From Motilibacter deserti (lineage in GTDB: Bacteria > Actinomycetota > Actinomycetes > Motilibacterales > Motilibacteraceae): 64,000 nucleotides of DNA. The stretch spans positions 1-64,000 of the forward strand of contig NZ_JAANNP010000009.1 of NCBI RefSeq assembly GCF_011250635.1, read 5' to 3'. Of the stretch, positions 43,743-52,907 are shown one piece after another; position 1 is the stretch's first letter, and every line of letters starts with the position of its first letter. Below the pieces are notes generated by a model. The model was not told where the DNA came from and ran no database searches. It saw nothing but the letters and a program-made list of their open reading frames with translations. A program made the position numbers and the translations under genes.

Positions 43743-45326
43743 TCAGTAGCGGAAGCGCGACACCAGGGTCTGCAGCTCCGAGCTCAGGCCCTTGATCAGG
43801 CCGGTCGTCTCGGCCGAGAGGCGGACCTCCTCGTCGGTGCTGCCGGTCGCCTGCGCCACGCGCCCGATCTTGACGGCGATCTCGTCGGTGCCGTGCGCGG
43901 CCTGCCCGACGCTGCGGCTGGCCTCGCCGGTCGTCGCGGTCTGCTCCTCGACCGCGGAGGCGATCGAGGTCTGGAACGTCGCGATCCGGTCGATGATCTC
44001 GGTGATCTGGGCGATGGTGTCCGCCGCGGCCGTGGTGTCGGTCTGGATCGTCTCGACGCGGCGCACGATGTCCTCGGTCGCGCGGGCGGTCTCCTGCGCG
44101 AGGTCCTTGACCTCCGAAGCGACGACGGCGAAGCCCTTGCCGGCCTCGCCGGCGCGGGCGGCCTCGATGGTGGCGTTGAGCGCGAGCAGGTTGGTCTGCT
44201 CGGCGATCGAGGTGATGACCTTGACGACGTCGCCGATCTCGCGCGAGGACTCCGAGAGCCGGCGGACCCGCTCGTCGGTGGCCGTGGCGGCCTGGACCGC
44301 GGCCCCGGCGACGGCGACGGCCTCGTTGGCGTTGCGGGAGATCTCCGAGATCGACTCGCCCATCTCGTCGGTGCCGGCGGCGACCGTGCGCACGCTGGCC
44401 GACACCTGGTCGGCGGCGGCCGCCACCTGGGCGGCCTGCTCGACGGCCTCGGCGGAGGCGGCGGCGATGCGGCCGGTCCCGCCCTCGAGCGTCTCCGCGG
44501 CCTGCGCCAGCGTGCCCGCGGTGCGCGCGGTCGACCCGAGGACCTCGCGGAGCGAGGCGACGGTCGTGTCGACGGCGCGGACGAGCTCGCCGACCTCGTC
44601 CTTGCGCTGGGCGTCGGCACCGGCCTCGACCGTGAGGTCGCCGTCTGCGACCGCACTGAGCGTCGCCACGCTGCGCCGCAGCGGGCCGACGATGCCGTTG
44701 GCGAGGACCAGCGCGAGGCCGACGCCGCCCGCGGCACCGAGCAGCAGGGCGATGACGAGCACGAGCCGGGCCGAGCTGTAGACGTCGTGCGAGGCCTTCT
44801 GCTGGGCCTTGCTGGACTCGGCGAGCGCGCCGTTGAGCTTGTCGACGGCGGCGATGATGTTGGAGTACGCGGTGGAGGAGTCGAGCGTCGAGGACCCGGA
44901 CGCGCTGGTGGCGGCGCCCGAGACGTTCGCGAGCTTGAGCATGGCGTCCGCCAACGTCCCCCACGCCTCCTTGACCGAGGCGATCTCGTCGGCCATCGCG
45001 GCCTTCTGCTCGGCGCTGAGGCTGGCCTCGAAGCCGTCCAGCACGGGTCCGAACGACGCGACCGTCGTCTTGGCGCCCTCGCTGATCTGCGCCTTGGCGT
45101 CGTCGCCCTCGGTGATCGGGTAGGCGAGCGCGCTCACCGTCAGGCTCTGGGTGAGGTAGCGGACCTGACCGGCCGCGAGGACCTGGTCCTGGGTGGCGAC
45201 GACCTTCTCGACGCCGTTGTTGATGCGGGCGAACGACCAGGCGCTGTAGACCCCCAGCGCGATCGACAGCCCGACGACTGACAGGAAGCCGGCCAGCAGC
45301 TTCGTGCGGATGCTCGTCGTGCGCAT
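43743..45326 (-). CDS. Methyl-accepting chemotaxis protein (orphan)
   Basis: 527 residues. TM1 ~9-28 ([20 protein letters not shown]), a periplasmic four-helix sensor of ~160 residues, TM2 ~188-212, a HAMP domain ([21 protein letters not shown]) and a long coiled-coil signalling domain. The hairpin tip has [19 protein letters not shown] and [15 protein letters not shown], so it should engage CheA/CheW. No che or fli gene is in the window. The promoter is of flagellar-sigma type. A ligand cannot be inferred. Confidence 0.93.
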
Positions 45327-45362
45327 GGGGCTCCAGTCCTCCGGGGTTGTCCTACCTCGTCC

Positions 45363-45388
45363 TTCGGCACCCGCCCCGTCGGCATGAG
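45363..45388 (-). promoter_or_regulatory. FliA/WhiG-type promoter of the chemoreceptor gene
   Basis: Minus-strand CTCA (45388-45385), 16-base spacer, GCCGAA (45368-45363), 36 bases upstream of the ATG. WhiG sites read TAAA-N15-GCCGATAA; the motile Actinoplanes FliA consensus I recall is CTCA-N15-17-GCCGAA, an exact match. Confidence 0.6.
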
Positions 45389-45430: not shown

Positions 45431-45459
45431 TTTGCGCACCCACTGAACGGGGCTATAGT
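45431..45459 (+). promoter_or_regulatory. Promoter of the GAF-GGDEF gene
   Basis: TTTGCG (45431-45436), 17 bases, TATAGT (45454-45459). The ~120-base leader contains small dyads (GCGCATTTCTGCGC, TTCAGGCTCTGAA, GTGGGCTACAGCCAC) and ends in a GGAAGGA ribosome site. Confidence 0.45.
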
Positions 45460-45585: not shown

Positions 45586-46749
45586 ATGGCGGACAAGCGC
45601 GAGCTCTTCGACGTGGTCGTCGAGTTCGCCCGGCGCGCGACCGGCGCCTTCACGGTCGAGGGGGTGCTGCGCGACCTCGCGGCCGCCGCCTGCCGGGTCC
45701 TTCCGGTCACCGGCGCGGGCGTGATGTACGTCGACGGCCGGCGGCTGCGGTTCGTGGACGCGAGCAGCGACAGCACGTGCGAGGCGGAGACCGCGCAGGA
45801 CGTGCTGGGGCAGGGCCCCTGTCACGACGCCGTGGACGCGGGCGAGGCCGTGCTCGAGCCCGACCTCGCGGTCGGCGCCTGGCGCTGGCCGGAGTTCGCC
45901 GACCGCGCGGTCGCGGTGGGGATGCGCTCGGTCGCCTCGGTCCCGCTGCTGGCGCGCGGCCGGGCCTGGGGCGCCCTGGACCTGTACCGGTCCGCCCCGT
46001 CGCCGTGGAGCGAGGAGGACCTGGAGGCGGCGCGGACGCTCGCGGACGTCGCGGTGAGCTACGTGGTCATGGCCCACGACCGGGACGAGGCGGAGGCGGC
46101 GCAGGACGCGTTGGTCCACGCTGCGACGCACGACGCGCTGACCGGGCTGCCCAACCGGGCGCTGCTCTACGACCGGCTCGAGCACGCGCTGGCGTCGGCG
46201 CAGCGGCGGGACGCACCGCTCGCGGTGCTCTTCCTCGACCTGAACGGCTTCAAGGCGATCAACGACACCCACGGCCACGAGGTCGGCGACCAGGTCCTCG
46301 TCGAGGCCGCCGGGCGGCTGGGCAACGCGCTGCGCACCGAGGACACGCTGGCCCGGCTGGGCGGCGACGAGTTCGTCATCCTCTGCGAGTCGCTCACGGC
46401 CGGCCCGCACGGGACGATCTCCGAGCACGCGCTCGCGGTGGTGACCGCACGCGTCCGCGCCGCCCTGGAGGCGCCGCTGCACGTCGCGGGCCACGACGTC
46501 GTGCTGCGCGCGAGCATCGGGGTCGCCACGGCCGGTCCTGGGTTCGACGACCCCGACGCGCTGCTGAGAGCGGCGGACAGCGCGATGTACCGGGAGAAGG
46601 TCGGGCTCGACGCGGCCTCGTGGTCGGCGCAGGAGCCGTCCGCCGGCCCGCGGCCGGACCGCCGCGGTCGGCGCAGGATCGACCTCGCTCGGCACGCCGG
46701 CGCGGCCGTCGAAGCCGAGCGCCTCCCGGTGGCCGAGCCGCTGGGGTGA
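45586..46749 (+). CDS. GAF-GGDEF diguanylate cyclase
   Basis: 387 residues from ATG 45586. A GAF sensor at ~8-165 (VEFARRATGAFTVEGVLRDLA, GQGPCHDAVDAGEAV, MRSVASVPLL) of the ANTAR-associated type is followed by a GGDEF domain: HDALTGLPNR, FLDLNGFKAINDTHGHEVGD and LARLGGDEFVIL, with the catalytic GGDEF intact and no obvious RxxD inhibitory site (ALRTED lies just before). It should make c-di-GMP in response to a small ligand or redox cue, in the cytosol. The ~60-residue C-tail is disordered. Confidence 0.9.
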   Translation: MADKRELFDVVVEFARRATGAFTVEGVLRDLAAAACRVLPVTGAGVMYVDGRRLRFVDASSDSTCEAETAQDVLGQGPCHDAVDAGEAVLEPDLAVGAWRWPEFADRAVAVGMRSVASVPLLARGRAWGALDLYRSAPSPWSEEDLEAARTLADVAVSYVVMAHDRDEAEAAQDALVHAATHDALTGLPNRALLYDRLEHALASAQRRDAPLAVLFLDLNGFKAINDTHGHEVGDQVLVEAAGRLGNALRTEDTLARLGGDEFVILCESLTAGPHGTISEHALAVVTARVRAALEAPLHVAGHDVVLRASIGVATAGPGFDDPDALLRAADSAMYREKVGLDAASWSAQEPSAGPRPDRRGRRRIDLARHAGAAVEAERLPVAEPLG

Positions 46750-50204: not shown

Positions 50205-52907
50205 TCAGGCCGGCGCCGCGGCCTCCGGCGAGCTCATCGCCCGCGCGCCCAGCCCGCAGGAGGCCTCGACGGCGGCCGCGGACATGGGCCGCGCGATCAG
50301 GAAGCCCTGCGCGGCGTCGCACTGCAGCGTCCGCAGGGCGGCCAGCTGCGCGTCCTCCTCGACCCCCTCCGCGACGACGGCGAGGTTGAAGGTGTGCGCC
50401 GCGCTCACGATGAGGCGGACCAGCTCCTGGTGCCCGGGCGCCTCGGACGCGACGAAGCTGCGGTCGATCTTGAGGGTGTCGACCGGCAGGTTCTGCAGCT
50501 GGCCGATCGAGGTGTAGCCGGTGCCGAAGTCGTCGATCGCGATGCGCACCCCGCTGCCGCGCAGCGCGCGGAGCCGGTCCGTGCAGGCCACGTCGTCGAC
50601 GATCATCGTCTCGGTCAGCTCGAGGACGAGGCACGACGGGTCGACCCCGGACCCGGCCAGCGCGTCGGCGACGTCGTCCAGGATCCGGGGGCTGCCGAGG
50701 TGCCGGCCGGAGACGTTGACGGCCATCGTGAGCCCGCGGCCGGCGTCGGCGGCGGACCAGGCGGCCAGCTGGCGCGTCGCCTCGCCCAGCGCCCACCGGC
50801 CGAGCTCGCAGATGAGGTTGGACTGCTCGGCCAGCGGGATGAAGGCGGCCGGCGGCACGAGGCCGTGCCCGGGCCGGTCCCAGCGCAGCAGCGCCTCGAA
50901 CCCGCGCAGCTCCTTCGTTGCGACCGACACCACCGGTTGGTAGTGCAGGAGGAACTCCCCCGCCACGAGGCCGTGCGCGATCGCGGCCTCGAGGTCGGCC
51001 CGCTCGGCCAGCTCGCGCCGCAGCTGCTCGTCGAACACCTCGGCCGTGCCCCGCCCAGAGGTCTTGGCCCGGTACGCCGCTGCGTCCGCCTCGCGCAGCA
51101 GGGCGTCGGCGTCGACCGAGCCGGTGCTGCTGATGGCGATGCCGACGCTGGCCCCGATGCGCACGGTGCTGTCGCCGATGGCGATGGGGTCGGACACCGC
51201 GGTGATGAGCCGCTGCGCCAGCGCCACGAGCGACACGTCGGACTCGACGGGCTCGAGCAGCACGAGGAACTCGTCGCCGCCGAGGCGGCAGACGACGTCG
51301 CCGGAGCGGACCAGAGCCTGCATGCGGCGCGCGACCGTGCGCAGCACCTCGTCCCCCGCGGCGTGGCCGAAGGTGTCGTTGACCTTCTTGAAGTAGTCCA
51401 GGTCGACGAAGAGCAGCGCGACGGTGGCGCTGGCGCGCTGCGCCCGGTGCAGCGCCCCCGCGATGAGCCGCAGCCCCTGGGCGCGGTTGGGCAGCTCGGT
51501 GAGCGCGTCGTGCGCGGCCTGGAAGGCGAGCTCGACCTGGAGCGTCTCGCGCTGCCGGATCGAGGTGACGATCTGCTCGATGGAGGCGTGCACCACCTGG
51601 CCGAGCGGCCCGGTGAGCGGCTCGCGGAGGCGCGCGTCGTCGAGCTCGCCGCGGGCGACGGCCTCGGCGTGCCCCTGCACCCGCCGCAGGCTCTCGACCG
51701 CTCCGGCGAGGGCACGCGCGACGGTGCGCACCTCCGTCGGCCCGGACTCGTGCACCTCGACCAGCTGCCCGTGGCTCACCGCGTCGGCATCGCGGGCCAG
51801 CCGGCGCAGCGGGCGGGAGACCGACTGCTCCACCGCGACGAGCAGGACGAGCGCGAGGACGAGCAGGAGCAGGGCGGAGCCCACGACGACGCGCAGGGTG
51901 CCGATCGCGGTCGAGCGCTGCTCCCCCGTCACCGCTATCGCGTGGTCGGCGGCCTGGTCCAGCAGCGAGACGAGCGCGGTGTCGCGGGCGATGCCGTCGC
52001 GATAGCTGTCGACGACCTTGCCCAAGGAAGGGGCGGCCGCGGAGCCCTTCGGGGCCAGCGTGGTGCTGCCGAGCGCGCGCTCGAACCGGCGCACCGGCGG
52101 GCTCGGCTGCAGGGCCTTCCAGGCCTGCCGCAGGCTCGGGGTGTGCAGCCCGTCCACCCGCTCGGCCGCGGCCTCGTAGGCGCCGCGGTCGGCGAGCAGC
52201 ATCGCGTGCTGCTCGGCCTCCCTGCCCTCTGCGGCGAAGTTGGCCGCGAGGAACTGCCCGAGCTCCTCTGCCGCAGCCTCGACGAGGTCGGAGATGCGGG
52301 CGATGTCCTCGAGGGCGACGACGCCGTCGGGGTCGAGGCCCTGCTCGATCGCGTCGTCGATGTGGGCGCGTTCGGCCTCGGTGAGCTGCGCGGAGACCCG
52401 GGCATAGCGGCGATAGACGTCGGCTGCGACGTCAAGGGCGCCTTCGGCGGTCTGAGTGTCCGGTCGTTCCTCGTCCAGCCCGGCTCGCAGCGCCGACAGC
52501 TGGGACGTCACCGAGTCGATGAGCGACGGGCTGACGCCCTGCGCGCGGGCCCGGGCCGTGGCGGCGTCGGTGGCCGTACGGGCGGCCTGCGCCTGCTTCA
52601 GCGTCAGAGCAAGCAGCGGCTCTCGCTGCACCTCCGGCAGCCCGACCATGCGGGAGAGCTCCACGTCTCCGGCGATCGCGACGCTGACCGAGGGCAGCGT
52701 CTCCTGGCCGATCATGCTGCGGACCGAGCTCAGGGCGGCGGCGTGCGTGACCGAGCGCTCGGCGTCCTGGGCGTCGCGCGCGCTCGTGAGCGTCACGCTC
52801 ACGCCGCTGCCCGCCAGCACGACGACACCGAGCATGGGCACCGCCACGAGGGCGAGCAGCCGTGGGCGCAGCGACCCCCGCGTACGGCGCTCCCCCGGCT
52901 GCTTCAC
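50205..52907 (-). CDS. Membrane-bound GGDEF-EAL c-di-GMP enzyme
   Basis: 900 residues. TM1 ~14-36, a ~300-residue helical extracytoplasmic sensor with a nitrate/MCP-like four-helix look, TM2 ~335-360 (LRVVVGSALLLLVLALVLLVAV), HAMP, then GGDEF (FVDLDYFKKVNDTFGHAAGDE, RLGGDEFLVLL) and EAL (GFEALLRWDRPGHG, ELTETMIV, DDFGTGYTSIGQLQNLPVD, KIDRSF). Both active-site motifs are intact, so it could make or break c-di-GMP depending on the signal. GTG 52907 follows a WhiG/FliA-like -10 by seven bases. Confidence 0.93.
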   Translation of the reverse strand: MKQPGERRTRGSLRPRLLALVAVPMLGVVVLAGSGVSVTLTSARDAQDAERSVTHAAALSSVRSMIGQETLPSVSVAIAGDVELSRMVGLPEVQREPLLALTLKQAQAARTATDAATARARAQGVSPSLIDSVTSQLSALRAGLDEERPDTQTAEGALDVAADVYRRYARVSAQLTEAERAHIDDAIEQGLDPDGVVALEDIARISDLVEAAAEELGQFLAANFAAEGREAEQHAMLLADRGAYEAAAERVDGLHTPSLRQAWKALQPSPPVRRFERALGSTTLAPKGSAAAPSLGKVVDSYRDGIARDTALVSLLDQAADHAIAVTGEQRSTAIGTLRVVVGSALLLLVLALVLLVAVEQSVSRPLRRLARDADAVSHGQLVEVHESGPTEVRTVARALAGAVESLRRVQGHAEAVARGELDDARLREPLTGPLGQVVHASIEQIVTSIRQRETLQVELAFQAAHDALTELPNRAQGLRLIAGALHRAQRASATVALLFVDLDYFKKVNDTFGHAAGDEVLRTVARRMQALVRSGDVVCRLGGDEFLVLLEPVESDVSLVALAQRLITAVSDPIAIGDSTVRIGASVGIAISSTGSVDADALLREADAAAYRAKTSGRGTAEVFDEQLRRELAERADLEAAIAHGLVAGEFLLHYQPVVSVATKELRGFEALLRWDRPGHGLVPPAAFIPLAEQSNLICELGRWALGEATRQLAAWSAADAGRGLTMAVNVSGRHLGSPRILDDVADALAGSGVDPSCLVLELTETMIVDDVACTDRLRALRGSGVRIAIDDFGTGYTSIGQLQNLPVDTLKIDRSFVASEAPGHQELVRLIVSAAHTFNLAVVAEGVEEDAQLAALRTLQCDAAQGFLIARPMSAAAVEASCGLGARAMSSPEAAAPA

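Follow-up and report, generated by a model that had tools for sequence, protein, structure and literature searches.

A chemoreceptor gene lies in the 64,000-nucleotide stretch of Motilibacter deserti DNA analysed here (hereafter the window), and no flagellar or che genes were seen within these 64 kb. A preliminary description had proposed that CTCA-N16-GCCGAA, 36 bases ahead of the gene, is a promoter of the FliA/WhiG class. The positions of the boxes (45388–45363, minus strand) and of the ATG (45326) were confirmed, and the spacing and the −10 box agree with this class; the −35 box, CTCA, departs from the general flagellar consensus, which has TAAA. The elements of the locus are as follows.

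43743–45326, minus strand: chemoreceptor gene (527 aa) with 4HB_MCP_1 sensor, HAMP and MCPsignal domains, from domain matches; its orthologue in the same genus is 85% identical
45331–45342, minus strand: probable ribosome-binding sequence, GGAGG (45342–45338) plus GGAG (45334–45331), as read from the sequence
45363–45368, minus strand: −10 box GCCGAA, sequence match, exact in the sister species
Between CTCA and GCCGAA, minus strand: 16-nt spacer TGCCGACGGGGCGGGT
45385–45388, minus strand: −35 box CTCA, sequence match, exact in the sister species

The end of GCCGAA (45363) and the receptor ATG are separated by 36 nt. The product carries the sensor, HAMP and signalling domains of a methyl-accepting chemotaxis protein (MCP), and CheA, CheW, CheB and CheR are encoded in the genome. 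A longer in-frame reading frame could start at 45443, but the coding similarity to the sister-species (G001) orthologue begins at the ATG at 45326, which supports this codon as the start. At the orthologous locus, CTCA-N16-GCCGAA is present exactly, 39 bp ahead of the same ATG; the intergenic DNA near the receptor has strongly diverged and the spacer is different, with both boxes retained exactly. For about 15 sites of the M. deserti genome, the downstream gene has a clear orthologue in G001 that is preceded by the site as well. Divergent from the receptor gene is a GAF-GGDEF gene (45586–46749), at which a housekeeping-type promoter, TTGCGC-N16-TATAGT (45432–45459, plus strand), appears to be directed; the minus-strand stretch GGACTATAGCCC is conserved in the sister species. 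A HAMP-GGDEF-EAL gene (50205–52907, minus strand), also near the receptor, has no recognisable site upstream.

Taken alone, the match is weak, as CTCA-N16-GCCGAA occurs once in the window against 0.32 expected (at least one occurrence in 27% of shuffles) and the pattern of the preliminary description gave 33 matches in the 5-Mb genome compared with 25 for its reversal. Raw genome-wide counts compared with the reversal were accordingly not accepted as proof, and the significance of the site rests on its position, its conservation and the other sites. The site had also been put forward as independent evidence of flagellation; flagellar genes are indeed encoded, but given these counts the site by itself is inadequate for that purpose. 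The reversed control for CTCA-N16/17-GCCGAW is biased, as it may contain TAG, which is depleted in reading frames, and RsiG-positive genomes without fliF gave a similar ratio (59 versus 10 in G104, 48 versus 8 in G212 and 60 versus 14 in G028), an excess that may come from a non-flagellar regulon of WhiG or from the biased control itself. For these two reasons the reversed control was dropped and a wrong spacing (N20/21) was used in its place. CTCA-N16/17-GCCGAW matched 70 times in the M. deserti genome and 66 times in G001, whereas the N20/21 spacing matched 18 and 13 times, respectively; the latter totals are possibly affected by codon phase, and the test was therefore restricted to intergenic position. 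Across the two genomes, 65 of 136 correctly spaced matches were intergenic and no more than 250 bp upstream of a start, versus 0 of the 30 wrongly spaced matches examined (Fisher p = 5e-8). Gene starts were taken from a simple codon-usage caller written for the analysis, so that individual site-to-start distances are approximate. Placement is not random, and the matches precede flg, fli, MCP and pil genes; random placement would, by the preliminary description, have counted against its reading. A purine follows CTCA in 59 of the 65 upstream sites and T is the last −10 base in 50; the usual form is CTCA-R...GCCGA(T more than A), relative to which the window copy, CTCAT...GCCGAA, is slightly atypical.

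The same site was found at motility genes that had been collected without the motif, MCP genes through PF00015 and flagellar genes through Flagellin_N, from the assembly of 269 contigs. Upstream sequence was available for 13 MCP genes, among them the one in the window; 5 of these, again counting the window's, have an exact CTCA-N16/17-GCCGA(A/T) within 200 bp, and three more carry it with a one-base mismatch; the chance per MCP gene, estimated from the rate of wrongly spaced matches, is ~0.0003. Several MCP genes lack a clear site. On a contig reached through flagellin, flgN (followed by flgK, flgL and fliW) carries the site, as do fliD, flgB (followed by fliF and fliG) and flgD on two contigs reached through the pattern of the preliminary description itself; the flgD site is located inside an upstream fliK-like gene. 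At related loci from Actinoplanes, Dactylosporangium, Nocardioides, Sanguibacter, Cellulomonas and others, the site was present within one mismatch at 15 of 48 MCP genes, versus 1 of 48 reversed upstream sequences. A survey of 32 intergenic sites in the M. deserti genome gave the following predicted targets.

Flagellar genes: flgN, fliD and flgB (plus flgD, from within a gene)
Chemoreceptor genes: five, the window's receptor among them
Type IV pilus genes: pilM, an MshEN-T2SSE ATPase and a second T2SSE ATPase
Genes for GGDEF and/or EAL proteins: nine
Histidine kinase genes: two
Remaining targets: among them secreted proteins whose function is unknown, together with sites at thrC, clpX and a glyoxalase gene that are likely due to chance

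The receptor had been assigned to a late motility regulon. Membership of a motility regulon is supported, but 'late' is too narrow, because the site also precedes early operons (flgB through fliF, and flgD), genes of the type IV pilus and c-di-GMP genes.

The preliminary reading was held to depend on a FliA/WhiG sigma and flagellar genes being encoded, and the genome provides WhiG, a second FliA-like sigma and flagellar genes. Flagellin, fliD, fliF, flgD, motA, cheA, cheB, cheR, cheW and many MCP genes are encoded. The WhiG sigma scored 407 bits against NF004935 (cut-off 343) and 288 bits against TIGR02479 (cut-off 189.6), and is closest to Streptomyces WhiG (6pfj/6pfv; 6pfj, E 7e-107); its gene is placed between xerC and rpsB, neighbour names that were read from the sequences. 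The second, FliA-like sigma (contig C152) scored 183 bits against TIGR02479, just below the cut-off, and its gene adjoins flgN-flgK-flgL-fliW. With a box spacing in the range of 15–17 nt, sites before flagellar genes, conservation at the orthologue and a cognate sigma in the genome, it is highly likely that the chemoreceptor gene is transcribed from this site through a FliA/WhiG-family sigma as part of the motility regulon; which sigma reads it and where transcription starts are predictions.

In Streptomyces, the anti-sigma RsiG, armed by c-di-GMP, binds WhiG and times sporulation. Using the published c-di-GMP motif of RsiG, E(X)3S(X)2R(X)3Q(X)3D (PMC8325347), we located a pair of in-frame copies on contig C264, separated by 104 codons (ESDLSYVRRLLQGRLD and EEEVSHSRRQVQEVVD). 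The 186-aa protein that contains them is RsiG (PF22802, 113.6 bits; 6pfj_T, the RsiG solved with WhiG, E 1e-32), and both RsiG and WhiG are well conserved in M. deserti and G001. Sixty genomes of the class were selected because they had an RsiG-family match; 13 of them encode fliF as well, including all five of Motilibacter's family. A second RsiG-family protein is encoded on contig C171 (L314:1159-1725, minus strand; PF22802, 59.7 bits; orthologue L316:2293-2841, plus strand); it has an intact c-di-GMP motif plus a near-copy (DLALSTYRKGLHERLD), and its gene adjoins crp-like and nth-like genes. At least three RsiG-domain matches are present in many genomes of the class, and second copies may therefore be common; one was reported in only 1 of 134 genomes (PMC8325347).

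We propose that RNA polymerase would read the site with a FliA/WhiG-family sigma, for which the WhiG whose gene sits between xerC and rpsB is the likeliest candidate, and that the ~30 promoters of this kind in the genome would activate operons for flagella, genes of the type IV pilus, several chemoreceptors and numerous c-di-GMP enzymes. As a twin-motif RsiG is encoded, the sigma would probably be blocked by RsiG at high c-di-GMP and freed as c-di-GMP drops, and GGDEF/EAL enzymes from within the regulon would feed back on the switch. The sequence itself shows that the site exists, that it is conserved and shared with other genes, and that WhiG, RsiG and flagellar and che genes are encoded; we infer the RsiG/c-di-GMP control and the function of the receptor. 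Placing the window's receptor under c-di-GMP-gated WhiG is a proposal for and against which we see equal weight. A broader scheme has an even chance of being correct: a c-di-GMP-dependent WhiG–RsiG switch would directly govern a single regulon comprising flagella, chemoreceptors and type IV pili, feedback would come from about nine GGDEF/EAL genes that belong to the regulon, and the second RsiG-family protein might serve the second FliA-like sigma. Given that the same signal precedes flagellum, pilus and c-di-GMP genes, and that the expected sigma and its c-di-GMP-dependent brake are both encoded, the signal before the receptor is very probably a real switch of the swimming programme. Several points speak against this explanation of the promoter and regulon: the window copy is atypical at two variable positions, some sites precede unrelated-looking genes (thrC, clpX, glyoxalase), several MCP genes have no clear site, and Actinoplanes controls flagella and pili without RsiG (PMC8325347).

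Two FliA-family sigmas are encoded, which makes WhiG the presumed rather than the established reader, and it is possible, though rather unlikely, that the promoter is real but read by the FliA-like sigma of contig C152, with RsiG uninvolved. The position of that sigma gene beside flgN-flgK-flgL-fliW would fit this arrangement, as would the use of WhiG-like sigmas for flagella and pili by Actinoplanes, which has no RsiG (PMC8325347); however, the C152 sigma falls under the FliA/WhiG cut-off that WhiG exceeds (183 and 288 bits, respectively, against 189.6), RsiG and WhiG alike show good conservation in M. deserti and G001, and the WhiG targets published for Rubrobacter (pili and dgc/pde genes) are of the same kinds as genes that follow the site in M. 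deserti. It is very improbable that the match arose by chance in GC-rich DNA and that the receptor is transcribed from another promoter: the expectation of 0.32 matches in the window, the 33 versus 25 genome-wide count and the atypical bases after CTCA and at the end of the −10 box are compatible with chance, but the boxes are kept at the orthologue where the spacer has diverged, the site recurs ahead of further MCP genes and of flagellar genes, and there is a position effect (65/136 versus 0/30).

The flagellar sigma of Escherichia coli, FliA (sigma-28), drives scattered chemoreceptors and some c-di-GMP enzymes. The predicted M. deserti regulon resembles these class 3 promoters in having a flagellar-type site before scattered chemoreceptors and c-di-GMP enzyme genes, and differs from them in that the E. 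coli −35 is TAAA and that early flagellar operons here also carry the site. WhiG-like sigmas direct flagellar and pilus genes in Actinoplanes missouriensis (PMC8325347), in which MCP, flagellar and pilus genes rise together (PMC11960193). M. deserti likewise has flagellar, pilus and chemoreceptor genes preceded by a common site, and related Actinoplanes MCP loci carry it, but M. deserti encodes RsiG, whereas the flagellated Actinoplanes does not (PMC8325347). The WhiG–RsiG switch of Rubrobacter is linked to type IV pili, with sites before pil and dgc/pde genes (PMC8325347). M. deserti shares WhiG and RsiG orthologues with Streptomyces and Rubrobacter and, as in Rubrobacter, its pil and GGDEF/EAL genes carry sites; unlike in these organisms, where the switch serves sporulation and pili, respectively, flagellar and chemoreceptor genes carry the predicted site here, and its −35 is CTCA rather than TAAA.

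Such a promoter is nothing unusual in a motile bacterium, and its value is as an entry point to a specific regulon that would connect swimming and sensing with pili and c-di-GMP in a flagellated actinobacterium with RsiG. The switch is known from sporulation (Streptomyces) and pili (Rubrobacter); what would be new here is a switch running flagella, chemotaxis and pili. If WhiG–RsiG controls flagella in M. deserti, this would be a third output of the switch, and would offer a mechanistic reason why flagella and abundant c-di-GMP enzymes are linked in Actinobacteria, a link that has been noted and left unexplained (PMC10746217). A literature search over an incomplete collection found no link of RsiG to flagellar control.

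Two further genes were observed. A secreted-looking protein (L247:1-1500, minus strand) and its G001 relative (in L231) have no Pfam family and are 86% identical between the species; the motility site precedes the gene in both, making it a candidate unknown member of the regulon. The full-length flagellin gene (L061:10050-11480, plus strand; contig C236) stands alone near phosphate-transport genes, away from the flagellar contigs that were identified, and the only match upstream of it, CTCA-N17-GTCGAG, is weak.
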